From positions 1 through 34,033 of the forward strand of contig CANJPT010000045.1 of the NCBI GenBank assembly GCA_947476195.1: 34,033 nt of DNA. Direction: 5' to 3'. Origin of the DNA: Lewinellaceae bacterium. GTDB lineage: Bacteria; Bacteroidota; Bacteroidia; Chitinophagales; Saprospiraceae. Shown here piece after piece: positions 15,762-29,744 of the stretch (position 1 is its first letter; every line of letters starts with the position of its first letter). The translations under genes were made by a program, and so were the position numbers. Under the pieces are notes generated by a model that worked only from the letters and a program-made list of their open reading frames with translations, was not told the origin of the DNA and ran no database searches.

Positions 15762-16949
15762 ATGCTAAAAATTGCTCAACTCCGCGCCGACACTCCGGCC
15801 TGTGCCCACAAAATCCACCTGAACAATGCCGGAGCAAGCCTACAGCCCAACCCGGTGCTCAAGGCCGTATATCGCCACCTCGAATTGGAATCTCAGCTGG
15901 GTGGCTACGAAGCAGCGGATGCCATGGCCGCTGAAATCGCAGGCTTCTACACATCGGTTGCCCTTTTGCTGCATACCCAGCCCCGAAATATTGCCTTCAC
16001 AGCCAGTGCTACCGATGCCTATGCCAAAGCACTTAGTTCCATTCCCTGGCGAGCCGACGAGGTGATCCTCACCACCGAAAACGATTACGCCTCCAACCAG
16101 ATCGCCTTCTTGTCGCTTCAAAAACGCCTGGGCGTACGGCTCTTGCGTGCCCGCGATCTTGCTTCCGGTGGGGTGGATGTGGACGACTTTGAGCGTCTGA
16201 TGCGTCAGCACCATCCTGTCCTGGCCGCTGTGACCCACGTGCCGACCAACAGCGGCCTGGTTCAGCCCGTCGAAGCGATCGGCAAGATCTGCCGGGAATT
16301 GGGGAGCTGGTACCTCGTAGATGCCTGCCAATCCGCGGGACAAATGGACCTGGATGTAGCACAGATCGGTTGTGATTTCCTTTCGGCTACGATGCGCAAA
16401 TACCTGCGTGGACCGCGGGGAGCGGGTTTTCTGTTTGCTTCTGACCGGGTGCTGGACGCTGGATTGGAATTGCTGCTGCCTGATATGCGCAGCGCGGATT
16501 GGTCCGGAGCAGATGAATACAATACTGCGCCTACTGCACGTCGGTTTGAATATTGGGAAACGCCCATCGCCCTGCTGCTGGGTAGCAAGGCTGCAGTGGA
16601 TTATGCGCTTGAGGTCGGCTTAGACCTTGCAGCGGCCCGCATCAACCAACTTGCTGAACTTACCCGCGAACTGCTTGCAGCACTGCCAGGGGTGAGGGTA
16701 CTGGATGAAGGCGCGCGTCTGTGCGGCATTGTTACGGCACAGGGCGACCATTGGGAAACAAAGGCTTTGATGGAAAAATTGTACGCTGCTAACATCAATT
16801 GCAGGATATCGCCACGAACGGCTGCCCAGATCGATTTTGGCCGAAAAGGGGTTGAATGGGCCATTCGGGTGTCGCCACATTATTACAACACGGAAGAGGA
16901 GATCAGGGAATTTGTGGAGGTCTTGCAGGATACACCTGGACATTTTTGA
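15762..16949 (+). CDS. Class-V aminotransferase-fold PLP enzyme (cysteine desulfurase/lyase-like)
   Basis: The 395-residue protein has the class-V (NifS/CsdB-like) PLP fold: 'HLNNAGASLQPNPVL' at the N-terminus, the cofactor-binding 'VDACQSAGQMDLD' (Asp187, Gln190), and the PLP lysine in 'LSATMRKYLRGPRGAGFLF' (Lys213). The C-terminal region lacks the Cys-bearing loop of IscS/SufS, so it is unlikely to be a housekeeping desulfurase. The 'RKYLRGPRG' motif is also seen in EgtE-like lyases and isopenicillin-N-epimerase-like proteins, so the reaction could be a beta-lyase, epimerase or transaminase. The ATG at 15762 starts 'MLKIAQLRAD'. It converges with the ACMSD gene across a large palindrome. 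Confidence 0.85.
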   Translation: MLKIAQLRADTPACAHKIHLNNAGASLQPNPVLKAVYRHLELESQLGGYEAADAMAAEIAGFYTSVALLLHTQPRNIAFTASATDAYAKALSSIPWRADEVILTTENDYASNQIAFLSLQKRLGVRLLRARDLASGGVDVDDFERLMRQHHPVLAAVTHVPTNSGLVQPVEAIGKICRELGSWYLVDACQSAGQMDLDVAQIGCDFLSATMRKYLRGPRGAGFLFASDRVLDAGLELLLPDMRSADWSGADEYNTAPTARRFEYWETPIALLLGSKAAVDYALEVGLDLAAARINQLAELTRELLAALPGVRVLDEGARLCGIVTAQGDHWETKALMEKLYAANINCRISPRTAAQIDFGRKGVEWAIRVSPHYYNTEEEIREFVEVLQDTPGHF

Positions 16950-17438
16950 TTTACCCGAAGACCTATAAGGTTTTTAGAAACCTACAGGATGTACAAAAGT
17001 TACAAAGTAGATTGGAAAAAGGATTTGACTATTTTTTTGACAGGATTTACAGGATAAACTGGATATGTCGGCTTCGCCGACTCCGTAGCCTAGTGCCGCG
17101 CCCGGCTATTAAGGTATGAATTGGGGAGGCAAATTTTTTCTTTATCAAGGCTTGAGAAGGGCGCAATGCGGGACATTTTAACCGACGAACAACGCAGAGA
17201 AAGGAAAAATTAGACCGCCATATTCACACCTTAATGGCCGGAGGCGGCATTAGATGATCTTTGCAGATAATTCTTAACAGGCATATTAAATCAAGGGTCG
17301 AAGCAAGTCGGCGAAGCCGACTCCATCCTGTTTATCCTGTAAATCCTGTCAAAAAACATATCGCATCATGTACAAGAAAAGATGTGTATACACTATAGGT
17401 TTCTAAAAACCTCATAGGTCTCGTACTCGAAAATGTCC
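16937..17438. repeat. Concentric palindromic element of about 500 bp between convergent genes
   Basis: At least three pairs of inverted arms are nested in strict order. Outer: 16937-16987 with 17392-17438, sharing GGACATTTT and AGGTTTTTAGAAACCT. Middle: 17032-17082 with 17305-17357, about 90% identical, sharing GACAGGATTTACAGGATAAA and GTCGGCTTCGCCGAC. Inner: 17093-17121 with 17222-17250, 24 of 29 positions matching. A weaker fourth pair lies at about 17124-17145 and 17198-17219. The left outer arm includes the last codons of the aminotransferase gene; the right one stops about 19 bp short of the ACMSD stop codon. No protein-coding gene is credible in the 507 bp between the two genes. It may be stacked interspersed repeats or one large folding RNA/DNA element. 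Confidence 0.75.
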
Positions 17439-17456
17439 ATCACTAAAGTCCTGAAC

Positions 17457-18458
17457 TCAGGCTTTTTTTTCTCCAAACAGCCATTCCAGACTGTTTTTGA
17501 AAAAAACACGCTCCAGGGTTTCCTCCGGCAAGCCCATTTCTTCAATAAATTTTCCAATTTCAAGATCTCCCAGTGGAAATGGATAATCTGTGCCCAGGCA
17601 AACTTTCTCTTCCCCTACCACCTCCAAAATATAGCGGAACAGTTGCACATCGTGGGTAGCCGAATCGTACCAAAACCGCCGGAGATACGCGCGTGGGGAC
17701 ACTGGATTGTCCACCGCCACCAGATCTGGCCGGCAATTGAACCCGTGTTCAATACGCCCAATGGTGGGCACAAACGAGCCGCCGGAATGCGCCAGACAAA
17801 CGCGCAACTTAGGCAGTCGCTCCAAAACGCCACCAAAAATAAGCGAACAAGCGGCCCGACTGGTTTCAGCCGGCATCCCAACCAGCCAGGGCAGCCAGTA
17901 TTTGCGCATTTCGGCCTCACCCATCATTTCCCAGGGGTGTACAAATACGGCCATGTGCAGGCGTTGACAAGCTTCGAAAATCGGGAAGAACTGAGCCTCG
18001 CTCAGGTTTTTCTGGTTTACGTTAGACCCGATCTGGATACCTGGAAAACCAAGACCATGTAAACGTTCCAGCTCTTTAATGGCCAGATCCGTGTCTTGCA
18101 TCGGGATCGTACCCAGCGCCAGATAGTGCTCGGGATAATCATCCACGATACCGGCCAGATGATCGTTGAGATACCTAGAAAGGTCGAGGCAGTCGGCAGG
18201 CTTGGCCCAATAACTGAACATGACCGGGATGGTACAAACCACTTGTACGGGCGTTCGGAAATGCGCATATTCGGCGATGCGTACCTGCGGATCCCAGCAG
18301 TTGGAGGCAATTTCCCGAAAAAAGGTATCCCCTTTCATCATCCGCGCAAATCCGGGGATATGGTGCTGCAGGTGTATAAATTCTCCGTAGCCGAACTTCT
18401 CCGCGAAATTCGGAAGCTTCTCCGGCAGGAGGTGGGTGTGCATGTCTATCTTTTTCAT
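17457..18458 (-). CDS. 2-amino-3-carboxymuconate-6-semialdehyde decarboxylase (ACMSD), amidohydrolase superfamily
   Basis: The 333-residue cytoplasmic zinc enzyme removes CO2 from 2-amino-3-carboxymuconate semialdehyde in the kynurenine/2-nitrobenzoate route, directing the carbon away from quinolinate. It keeps the whole ACMSD active site: HxH at His7 and His9 (KIDMHTHLLPE), His174 (VFVHPWEMM), His224 (CLAHSGGSF) and Asp291 (LGTDYPFPLGD). Further signature stretches are 'VMFSYWAKP', 'MPAETSRAACSLI' and 'FGYGEFIHLQHH'. Length and spacing match both bacterial and animal ACMSD. No other kynurenine-pathway gene is adjacent. The ATG at 18458 is the only start giving the HxH at the usual distance. 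Confidence 0.93.
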   Translation of the reverse strand: MKKIDMHTHLLPEKLPNFAEKFGYGEFIHLQHHIPGFARMMKGDTFFREIASNCWDPQVRIAEYAHFRTPVQVVCTIPVMFSYWAKPADCLDLSRYLNDHLAGIVDDYPEHYLALGTIPMQDTDLAIKELERLHGLGFPGIQIGSNVNQKNLSEAQFFPIFEACQRLHMAVFVHPWEMMGEAEMRKYWLPWLVGMPAETSRAACSLIFGGVLERLPKLRVCLAHSGGSFVPTIGRIEHGFNCRPDLVAVDNPVSPRAYLRRFWYDSATHDVQLFRYILEVVGEEKVCLGTDYPFPLGDLEIGKFIEEMGLPEETLERVFFKNSLEWLFGEKKA

Positions 18459-28353: not shown

Positions 28354-28411
28354 CGGAAAATCCACAAGAGTACGGACGCGGATGCCGAAAAGCGATCAGA
28401 GTAGGCACAAA
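28354..28411 (+). promoter_or_regulatory. Leader element, copy A (upstream of the subtilase gene)
   Basis: This roughly 58-bp stretch reads CGGAAAATCC, then GAGTACGGACGCGGATGCCG and AAAAGCGA, then AGAGTAGGCA, ending 20 bp before the subtilase ATG. A copy with a few changes lies at 29684-29744, 23 bp before the ATG at 29768. It is not in frame with the subtilase start, so it is not part of its protein. Both placement and conservation suggest a cis-acting 5' leader or promoter element. Confidence 0.6.
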
Positions 28412-28431: not shown

Positions 28432-29661
28432 ATGAAAACACGTTTTTTAATGCTTCTATTAGGCCTGTTAGCTGCAGTGCATCTTTTTGCACAGACAGAT
28501 GGGCCCATTCCCGAACAGTACATTGTATTGATCAGGGAAAGTTACGCAAGTCCTGTTGCGCTGCAGGAAGTTACCACCGAGGATCGCGAATCAGCCTTTA
28601 ACCTGAACGATGGCAAACGAACACAAAACCTACAGTTTTTGGCAAGTGTGCGCAATGCCGCCGCTATTAGCAATACGCAGGTCTTGGCCGAATATGCCGA
28701 CGCCATTGTGGGCTTCAGCGCTAAACTTACATCAGAACAAGTTAGTATGTTACGCCAAAACCCTGCCGTAGAAGGGGTTTTTCAGGACTATTATGTCAGT
28801 ACTGAGCCCGAGGCCATCGAGAGAGTCCCAGCGGAATTTTCTCCTGAAGGTCAGACAACTCCCTGTGCCATCACCAATGCCGGAGGTTTTGTCGATGCGG
28901 CTGCAAAAACCAATTGGATCTGGATTCTGGACACCGGAATTGACTTTGATCATCCAGACTTAAATGTTCAGGCATCTTTGCCTTATGCACAGTCATTCAT
29001 ATCCGGACAAACGGCCGACGATGGTAATGGACACGGCACCCATGTAGCTGGAATTGCTGCAGCCAAAAACAACGGAATCGGAATTGTGGGTGTATCAGCC
29101 GGGGCGAAGGTGGTACCAGTAAAGGTTTTACCCAATTCAGGTGCCGGTGGCTCTATATCTATCATTATTCAGGGACTAAACCATGTAGCCTCCTTTGACA
29201 AGCAAAATGATGTGGTCAATCTAAGCATTGGTGCCTATCCAATTACCAACTGTGAAAACTCAAATCTTCCACTGCGAGATGCGATCAAAAACCTGGGTAT
29301 ATCAGGCACTTGGGTTTGTATAGCCTCTGGTAACAACGCAGCAAATGCAGCCTTGTGCTCGCCTGGTTGTATCAATGGCATAAAGGTTTTAACAGTGGGA
29401 GCCATAACCTGCGCGCAGGGCTGCTATTCAGGCCCAAACTGGGGCACTCCAGTGGTTGATTGGGTAGCTACTGGCCAAAGTGTTTATTCAACCTACAAAA
29501 ACGGAGGCTATGCTACCCTGACAGGTACCTCCCAGGCCAGTCCAGTGGTTGCCGGAATCATTCATGCACGGGGAGGACTAGCACCTGTCAGTGGCGGTAC
29601 CATCAGTTGTGGAAACGCATCTGTTCCACCCGCAGCATATAAAAAAGCAAAGCGGGCTTAA
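28432..29661 (+). CDS. Subtilisin-family (S8) secreted serine protease with I9 propeptide
   Basis: The 409-residue preproenzyme has a signal peptide (MKTRFLMLLLGLLAAVHLFA), an inhibitor-I9-like propeptide (about 29-125, 'PEQYIVLIRE' and 'VEGVFQDYYV') and an S8 catalytic domain. All active-site residues are present: Asp167 (WILDTGIDFDHPDL), His201 (GNGHGTHVAG), oxyanion Asn301 (ASGNNAAN) and Ser367 (TGTSQASPVVAG). Several Cys residues in the catalytic part (145, 274, 296, 309, 313, 327, 331, 393) could form disulfides. It ends soon after the domain (KKAKRA) and has no T9SS tail, unlike the cargo proteins at 18656-24726. The ATG at 28432 follows the shared leader element by 20 bp. Confidence 0.95.
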   Translation: MKTRFLMLLLGLLAAVHLFAQTDGPIPEQYIVLIRESYASPVALQEVTTEDRESAFNLNDGKRTQNLQFLASVRNAAAISNTQVLAEYADAIVGFSAKLTSEQVSMLRQNPAVEGVFQDYYVSTEPEAIERVPAEFSPEGQTTPCAITNAGGFVDAAAKTNWIWILDTGIDFDHPDLNVQASLPYAQSFISGQTADDGNGHGTHVAGIAAAKNNGIGIVGVSAGAKVVPVKVLPNSGAGGSISIIIQGLNHVASFDKQNDVVNLSIGAYPITNCENSNLPLRDAIKNLGISGTWVCIASGNNAANAALCSPGCINGIKVLTVGAITCAQGCYSGPNWGTPVVDWVATGQSVYSTYKNGGYATLTGTSQASPVVAGIIHARGGLAPVSGGTISCGNASVPPAAYKKAKRA

Positions 29662-29683: not shown

Positions 29684-29744
29684 CGGAAAATCCTGATAAA
29701 AGAGTACGAACGCGGATGCCGAAAAGCGAATAGAGTAGGCAAAA
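29684..29744 (+). promoter_or_regulatory. Leader element, copy B (upstream of the gene at 29768)
   Basis: This is the second copy of the element at 28354-28411, with the same CGGAAAATCC, GAGTACGAACGCGGATGCCG, AAAAGCGA and AGAGTAGGCA words in the same order. A small insertion (TGATAA) separates the first two words. It lies 22 bp after the subtilase stop codon and 23 bp before the next ATG. Confidence 0.6.

Follow-up and report, generated by a model that had tools for sequence, protein, structure and literature searches.

How does a concentric palindrome of about 500 bp, with several different repeats stacked in mirror image, come to lie between two convergent genes? The window (the whole stretch of 34,033 nucleotides of the Lewinellaceae bacterium contig that was analysed) contains such a structure, hereafter the nest. 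It very probably arose by successive insertions, in which element A was followed by element T(R) at the axis of A's hairpin and then by element C. The features on which this account is built are as follows.

15762..16949, + strand: aminotransferase class V gene (PLP enzyme; Pfam PF00266, 5.6e-48), which we take to be kynureninase-like
16920..16928, + strand: left 9-bp target-site duplication of A, GTCTTGCAG; register taken from the A consensus
16929-17447: whole span of element A, a member of a 91-bp palindromic MITE family
16929..16983, + strand: left part of A, with most of its central hairpin P
16968..16983, + strand: left copy of the hairpin core AGGTTTTTAGAAACCT, duplicated by T
16984..17396, + strand: element T(R), which consists of palindrome R flanked by the T ends (consensus ACGGTATGTACACAAGTT and its inverse) and is split by C
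17033..17064, + strand: left arm of R, with ACAGGAT units
17067..17082, + strand: GTCGGC hairpin within R, left copy
17090..17093, + strand: CTAG, left target duplication of C
17094..17249, + strand: element C, a 156-bp MITE, TGCCGC...GCGGCA
17250..17253, + strand: TTAG, right target duplication of C, with one substitution
17306..17321, - strand: GTCGGC hairpin within R, right copy
17325..17356, - strand: right arm of R
17397..17412, + strand: right copy of the hairpin core; matches the left at 14 of 16 positions directly and 16 of 16 as reverse complement
17397..17447, + strand: right part of A
17448..17456, + strand: GTCCTGAAC, the decayed right-hand 9-bp target-site duplication of A, which agrees with the left one at 6 of 9 positions
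17457..18458, - strand: convergent Amidohydrolase_2 gene (Pfam PF04909, 1.7e-32)

Geometry and folding of the nest

A sequence-only reading of this DNA had described nested inverted arms around a common centre, with arm identities of 80 to 92%. The palindrome is present at that place, and five arm pairs nest between 16937 and 17439: 16937-16949/17427-17439 (92% identity), 16959-16995/17385-17421 (86%), 17033-17064/17325-17356 (97%), 17067-17082/17306-17321 (100%) and 17090-17146/17197-17253 (77%). The identities thus span 77 to 100%, a wider range than the one described. The nested order stands, but the single centre does not: the innermost pair has a centre of its own (coordinate sum 34343), about 20 bp from that of the others (sums 34376-34389), which was an early hint of a separate element. 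In a dot-plot, the check that the same reading had proposed, one anti-diagonal dominates, with 80 of 101 inverted 8-mer matches falling within a single 20-nt band (sum 34380-34399); the largest band in 200 mononucleotide shuffles had a mean of 3.5 matches and a maximum of 11.

The expected fold-back on either strand was borne out against shuffled controls, with folding energies of -222 kcal/mol (z -16.3) on one strand and -219.7 kcal/mol (z -16.4) on the other, and none of 100 shuffles folding as well on either strand. So stable a fold, placed between convergent stop codons, would fit a structured non-coding RNA or a double terminator selected as such, an option that had also been raised. Equal stability on both strands is, however, a property of any DNA palindrome, no Rfam family reaches its gathering score in the nest, and a pattern scan found no promoter-like or terminator-like site inside it, the one terminator-like site lying outside at 17516-17535. 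Three relatives, moreover, manage with only one or two bases between the same stops (see below). Selection for an RNA or terminator function is therefore very improbable, although the nest may possibly affect transcript ends as a by-product.

Element A and the uninterrupted gene junction

The outermost layer is a MITE, as indicated by terminal inverted repeats, small size, many copies and a target duplication of fixed length. Copies of the A family are mostly 91 bp long and read CATACTACTGGACATTTT...GTCCAGTAGTATG around the central hairpin P (AGACCTATAAGGTTTTTGGAAACCTTATAGGTCT). The outer arms (approximately query positions 1-54) recur in at least 36 other places in this genome among the 40 of 145 candidates scored, and the A end word has 140 matches. 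The flanking 9-mers are identical at 8-9 positions in 18 of 22 end pairs, compared with a shuffled mean of 2.8, and shifting the register lowers the mean match from 8.0 to 2.0-2.6 of 9; among these 22 pairs, one (L055) reuses the end of a neighbouring copy and one comes from a copy that lacks P. Once T and one core copy are removed, 74 of the 91 columns aligned for the A copy of the window carry the base found in most of seven copies. Outside this genome, the P hairpin (with up to two mismatches) was found in three others among 395 genomes of the phylum.

The state of this junction before any insertion is preserved in relatives. Fifteen of 76 loci with relatives of the PLP enzyme were examined, and three of them (L096, L097 and L098, all from Saprospiraceae metagenome assemblies) have kept the amidohydrolase neighbour, at 91-94% protein identity. 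In these three, the stops are 2, 2 and 1 bases apart with no insert, and in L096 the left 9-mer of A, GTCTTGCAG, is present at the gene end. In the window, as had been noted from the sequence, the left outer arm includes the end of the PLP-enzyme gene: the last six codons and the stop (16947-16949) lie inside A. The insertion has thereby rewritten a gene end, and the PLP enzyme now closes in codons within A.

Element T(R) at the axis of A's hairpin

The second layer, T(R), is located in the central hairpin of A, and A copies without T provide its empty state. The T ends surround palindrome R, whose ACAGGAT arm pattern has 46 matches in this genome (at most one mismatch, the two of the window included). 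Excluding C, positions 16959-17421 agree with a copy on contig 77 in 284 of 304 aligned columns. The T(R) copies on contigs 77 and 3 both lack C; in the contig 77 copy, the middle arms are present and the matching halves join with a 3-bp overlap. On contig 79, T is found in a different hairpin. This genome yielded no T copy that has both ends but lacks R, R itself being the route by which most of its T copies were located; a single lone T end without R occurs at L177.

These copies bear on the idea that the nest is one large, decayed inverted duplication in which islands of arm identity remain. Its shared centre and nested order would fit such an origin. Against this, the outer, ACAGGAT and inner arm pairs come from different dispersed multi-copy families, the innermost pair does not share the centre of the rest, the middle layers occur on contig 77 in the absence of C, and the three relatives have no arms at all; the empty site on contig 77 and the independent copies already refute a single duplication, which retains next to no credibility. 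On the refuting condition that the sequence-only reading had set for itself, arm pairs do recur independently elsewhere, and no second full-length match was seen among the 40 of 191 candidates scored in this genome. Since the outer, ACAGGAT and middle parts recur separately, the arms do not move as one block. The nearest of the origins offered by the sequence-only reading was a cassette of REP-like elements. The nest is made up of separately mobile palindromes.

It had further been argued that mirror-image stacking of different repeats is not what random insertion gives. This fails as a general rule, because a palindromic element inserted in the loop of another always yields mirror-image order, but it holds for the T layer, which is targeted to palindrome axes.

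Element C

The innermost layer is also a MITE, with a 4-bp duplication that differs by one base in the window copy. The region of C (about 17090-17253) recurs in at least 38 other places at 93-99% identity among the 40 of 191 candidates scored in this genome, in addition to one partial copy at 85%. The length of a complete copy is 156 bp, with one exception of 151 bp, and the 4-bp flanks are identical in 13 of 16 cases (12 CTAG and one CTAA). The empty site of C, an uninterrupted GCCTAGATGA, is found in the T(R) copies on contigs 77 and 3. MITEs of IS5-type elements have a YTAR duplication, and C resembles them in its short length, its inverted ends and its 4-bp CTAG or CTAA duplication; no full-length partner was found among the loci examined.

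Excluding C, the 359 bp of the nest contain a single CTAG, in the spacer between the arms of R, so the near-central place of C needs no special explanation. Palindrome targeting by C was considered and ruled out, given that its position is set by this only CTAG; the flanks of other copies were judged by eye. Because insertion leaves CTAG at both ends, C renews its own target. By eye, the C copies at L013, L010, L040, L022 and L028 abut the apparent ends of older C copies, and the copy at L011 adjoins a copy of A. Fifteen contigs of the present assembly (G000) begin in a C copy (12, 41, 42, 47, 51, 115, 125, 129, 136, 159, 174, 201, 212, 215 and 222) and nine end in one (14, 25, 32, 40, 41, 91, 104, 184 and 195). 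C thus breaks the assembly of this genome, and its true number is probably higher.

The T family in sister genomes

When 40 genomes were searched with the nest region, 14 gave matches, this genome included. G021 and G017 have the same outer arms as the nest around quite different cores. The T end word is present in 9 of 42 genomes of the genus, with 33 and 34 matches on the two strands of G021. Paired T copies were analysed from G021, G017, G045 and G041 only, so that this genome contributes none. The 49 end pairs were reduced to 45 copies by counting L265, L268 and L298 once and dropping L278, which is cut by the end of a contig or of the extracted stretch; L281, cut by a contig end, was also dropped for the within-copy pairing statistics, which cover 44 copies. 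Loci with a single T end or with ends more than 1200 bp apart (L220, L222, L289, L291-L294 and L299) were left out of the counts. Among the 44 copies, L215/L285, L221/L288 and L274/L284 each represent the same insertion in two species, and L223/L225 represent one site with different cargo.

In 40 of the 45 copies, a palindromic core resembling AGGTTTNNNNAAACCT directly adjoins both T ends (at most two substitutions per core). In direct orientation, the paired cores of a copy are more alike than those of shuffled pairings (11.83 compared with 9.32 +/- 0.34, 0 of 3000), and in inverted orientation there is no such excess (9.36 compared with 9.42, p 0.57). Considered individually, 28 copies fit better directly, 13 fit better inverted and 3 are ties; over 16 bp, eight pairs are identical directly and three as reverse complements. 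The outer arms are complementary within copies (11.76 compared with 7.65 +/- 0.56, 0 of 3000 shuffles). The direct core and arm signals persist, at 0 of 3000 each, in 40 copies without orthologous doubles, in 22 that also lack A-like arms and in 16 that also lack the shared D-type flanks of G021, and the inverted core has no clear excess in any of these sets (377-909 of 3000). A looser filter on a single exact A-arm word, which left 30 copies and kept some altered A arms, had the same outcome. This pattern is the one expected if T inserts at the axes of numerous distinct palindromes and duplicates the core.

By eye, the T copy at L272 has a direct duplication of about 31 bp instead of 16, with a complete hairpin on one side.

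It could be argued that T does not insert into hairpins and that the cores are its own inverted repeats, the mobile unit being P-T-P or A-P-T. The presence of the core at both ends of 40 of 45 copies would agree with this, as would several A+P+T copies in sister species that have near-identical A arms and, in some cases, A-type 9-bp duplications (by eye), features which imply that those particular copies can move as a unit. As a general account this is unlikely, given that the sequence outside T, in arms and core alike, differs from copy to copy but agrees within each copy, even in copies without A-like arms, that a different hairpin hosts T on contig 79, and that the core is uninterrupted at four T sites in sister species.

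Intact T sites in sister species

For these comparisons, eight T insertions were joined without T and searched in the 42 genomes of the genus, and an uninterrupted counterpart was found in a sister species for four of them (L264, L269, L275 and L286). The L275 site is intact in G045, where it forms a palindrome whose 30-bp arms match perfectly around a loop of 4 bases. L269 is also intact in G045, and its site in a third species, G050, has no such hairpin. L264 is intact in G045 and more diverged in G017 and G050. L286 is intact in G021, and its counterpart in G017 holds other DNA. By alignment with G045, the duplicated stretch is 16 bases at L275 and 15 each at L269 and L264, with 11 bases at L264 by comparison with G017 and G050. 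At L286 the alignment gives only 6 bases because the right core is the reverse complement of the left.

The other four sites had no intact counterpart among the 42 genomes: for L261, the G045 site holds other DNA; for L277 and L279, the flanks were found too far apart; and for L214, only the hairpin part was matched outside its own place.

Folding of the intact sites gave z -0.74 at one, no better than shuffles, and z -4.31 at another. The sister site of L264 scarcely forms a hairpin and the targets share the core AGGTTTNNNNAAACCT, so that recognition of sequence and recognition of structure are inseparable here. Within that limit the T family is palindrome-targeting: one and the same element is found at the axes of various palindromes that were there before it, and relatives have intact sites.

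At L354 and L355, the place where another species has T is taken by a palindromic insert of another kind, whose arms abound in GGAGAG and GCAGAG words.

Cargo of T and the search for enzymes

The cargo of T is hairpin-rich and varied, consisting of R in this genome and G041, of K (ACATCTAGCATCTT...) in G021, G017 and G045, and of a third kind at L225, L263 and L277. The copies L225 (in G017) and L265 (in G021, at the same place as L223) occupy one chromosomal site by both flanks (87-90% identity), and both have T ends, but the cargo differs and is 461 and 233 bp long, respectively.

Exchange of cargo at one site, together with the several cargo types and the minority of copies with reverse-complement cores, would be compatible with a stack that grows without any transposase, other repeats being captured when hairpin tips break or the template is switched at a palindrome. 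The constant junctions, the 9-bp and 4-bp duplications and the directly repeated cores point instead to enzymatic insertion, and growth without a transposase is accordingly a highly unlikely account of the nest. Successive enzymatic insertion is preferred here.

No transposase gene is present in most of the T copies that were read. Two copies differ: at L270, K has a Y1 transposase gene (PF01797, 6e-26) at its centre, and at L289 (409-2180) an IS110-family transposase gene is located between T ends among K hairpins. Both genes look like passengers of T, and the one at L289 is a further layer of nesting. None of the loci examined yielded a transposase for A, T or C, and no full-length insertion sequence among them shared the ends of these elements.

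Y1 enzymes are not known to make a target duplication. An origin of R from Y1 transposases, as in REPINs, was considered and found no support in this genome: pairs of ACAGGAT units at a 2-base spacing are absent from all seven of its Y1 loci. In sister genomes, Y1 transposase genes lie between inverted K-type hairpins in a REPIN-like manner at L307, L309 and L321. At L304, L305 and L306, such genes have long inverted tandem-hairpin arrays on either side, and the array sequence differs among the three genomes concerned. The nest shares paired inverted hairpins with the REPINs and their REP-associated Y1 transposases, as excerpts of PMC3116915 describe them, and so do the three loci with Y1 genes between K-type hairpins; R differs from REPINs in the missing paired units at the Y1 loci of this genome.

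Mechanism and relation to known systems

On the successive-insertion account, A would have landed first, at the 3' end of the PLP-enzyme gene, duplicating 9 bp of the target; T(R), with its ACAGGAT palindrome R, would then have entered the axis of A's central hairpin, leaving the core on both sides; and C would have entered the single CTAG in the spacer between the arms of R. All three are palindromic and each sits in the loop of its predecessor, hence the concentric mirror images. The order is suggested by the nesting and agrees with a divergence that falls inwards (74/91, 284/304 and 93-99%), and movement was presumably catalysed by transposases encoded elsewhere. For T, the most likely route would be a DDE-type enzyme acting in trans that links the element to both strands at the base of the core's stem-loop, after which repair would double that stem-loop.

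Some details fit this account less well. The cores of the window fit better inverted (16/16) than directly (14/16), the target duplication of A in the window matches at only 6 of 9 positions, the search for a transposase of A, T or C came up empty, and the step of R into T has no proper empty site. The inverted fit, which 13 of 44 sister copies share with the window, requires later arm conversion or flipping; such conversion, taking place in a long palindrome, would account for reverse-complement cores.

Insertion at fixed points of palindromes is already known. According to excerpts of PMC1525189, ISPsy8, ISPa11, ISPpu9, ISPpu10 and ISRm22 target REP palindromes at a fixed point, in the case of ISRm22 at the axis of palindromy, with direct repeats that are absent or 2, 3 or 6 bp long. 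T shares with these elements a fixed insertion point in a dispersed palindrome but differs in a repeated core of about 14-16 bp that spans the inner stem-loop. Insertion of an IS into a palindromic MITE is likewise known, from the two-layer nesting of IS1111 inside QMITE2 of Coxiella (PMC10969869, in the part consulted). That case involves a full insertion sequence in one MITE, whereas the nest comprises at least three gene-free palindromic elements.

IS1272, which is placed with the IS1182 family, also targets an inverted repeat, but replaces the stem-loop with no duplication (excerpts of PMC5678879), in contrast to the core duplication of T. The same excerpts draw hypothetical side pathways in which the stem-loop or the loop is duplicated at both ends, and the T family looks like the remains of the stem-loop-duplicating one. 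Since IS1272 targets stem-loops, IS1182 was tested as a partner of T and rejected: a transposase above the cut-off was found in one of eight genomes (G054), which is not listed with a T-end match. The weaker IS1182 matches had no flanking pair of T ends, one of them having a single T-like end nearby (L361).

A broader proposal, which we hold tentatively and at somewhat less than even weight, is that T represents a class of transposons whose enzyme recognises a DNA stem-loop (cruciform), attacks its two feet and duplicates the complete stem-loop. The target would then be doubled, not consumed, hairpins would serve as permanent landing pads, and layered palindromes would accumulate inside gene-end hairpins across a genus. 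No description of T or of the nest was found in the open-licence literature searched. Judged against that literature, a duplication the size of a stem-loop is new, and so is the finding that, in a single bacterial genus, palindromes have repeatedly been stacked concentrically around cores that can be exchanged. A puzzling 500-bp palindrome thereby becomes a readable insertion history, and the sister genomes supply natural before-and-after pairs for palindrome-targeted transposition.

Elsewhere in the window, two + strand matches to the DUF805b RNA score above the gathering threshold, at 28375-28407 and 29709-29741; the first ends 25 bp upstream of a reading frame that starts at 28432.
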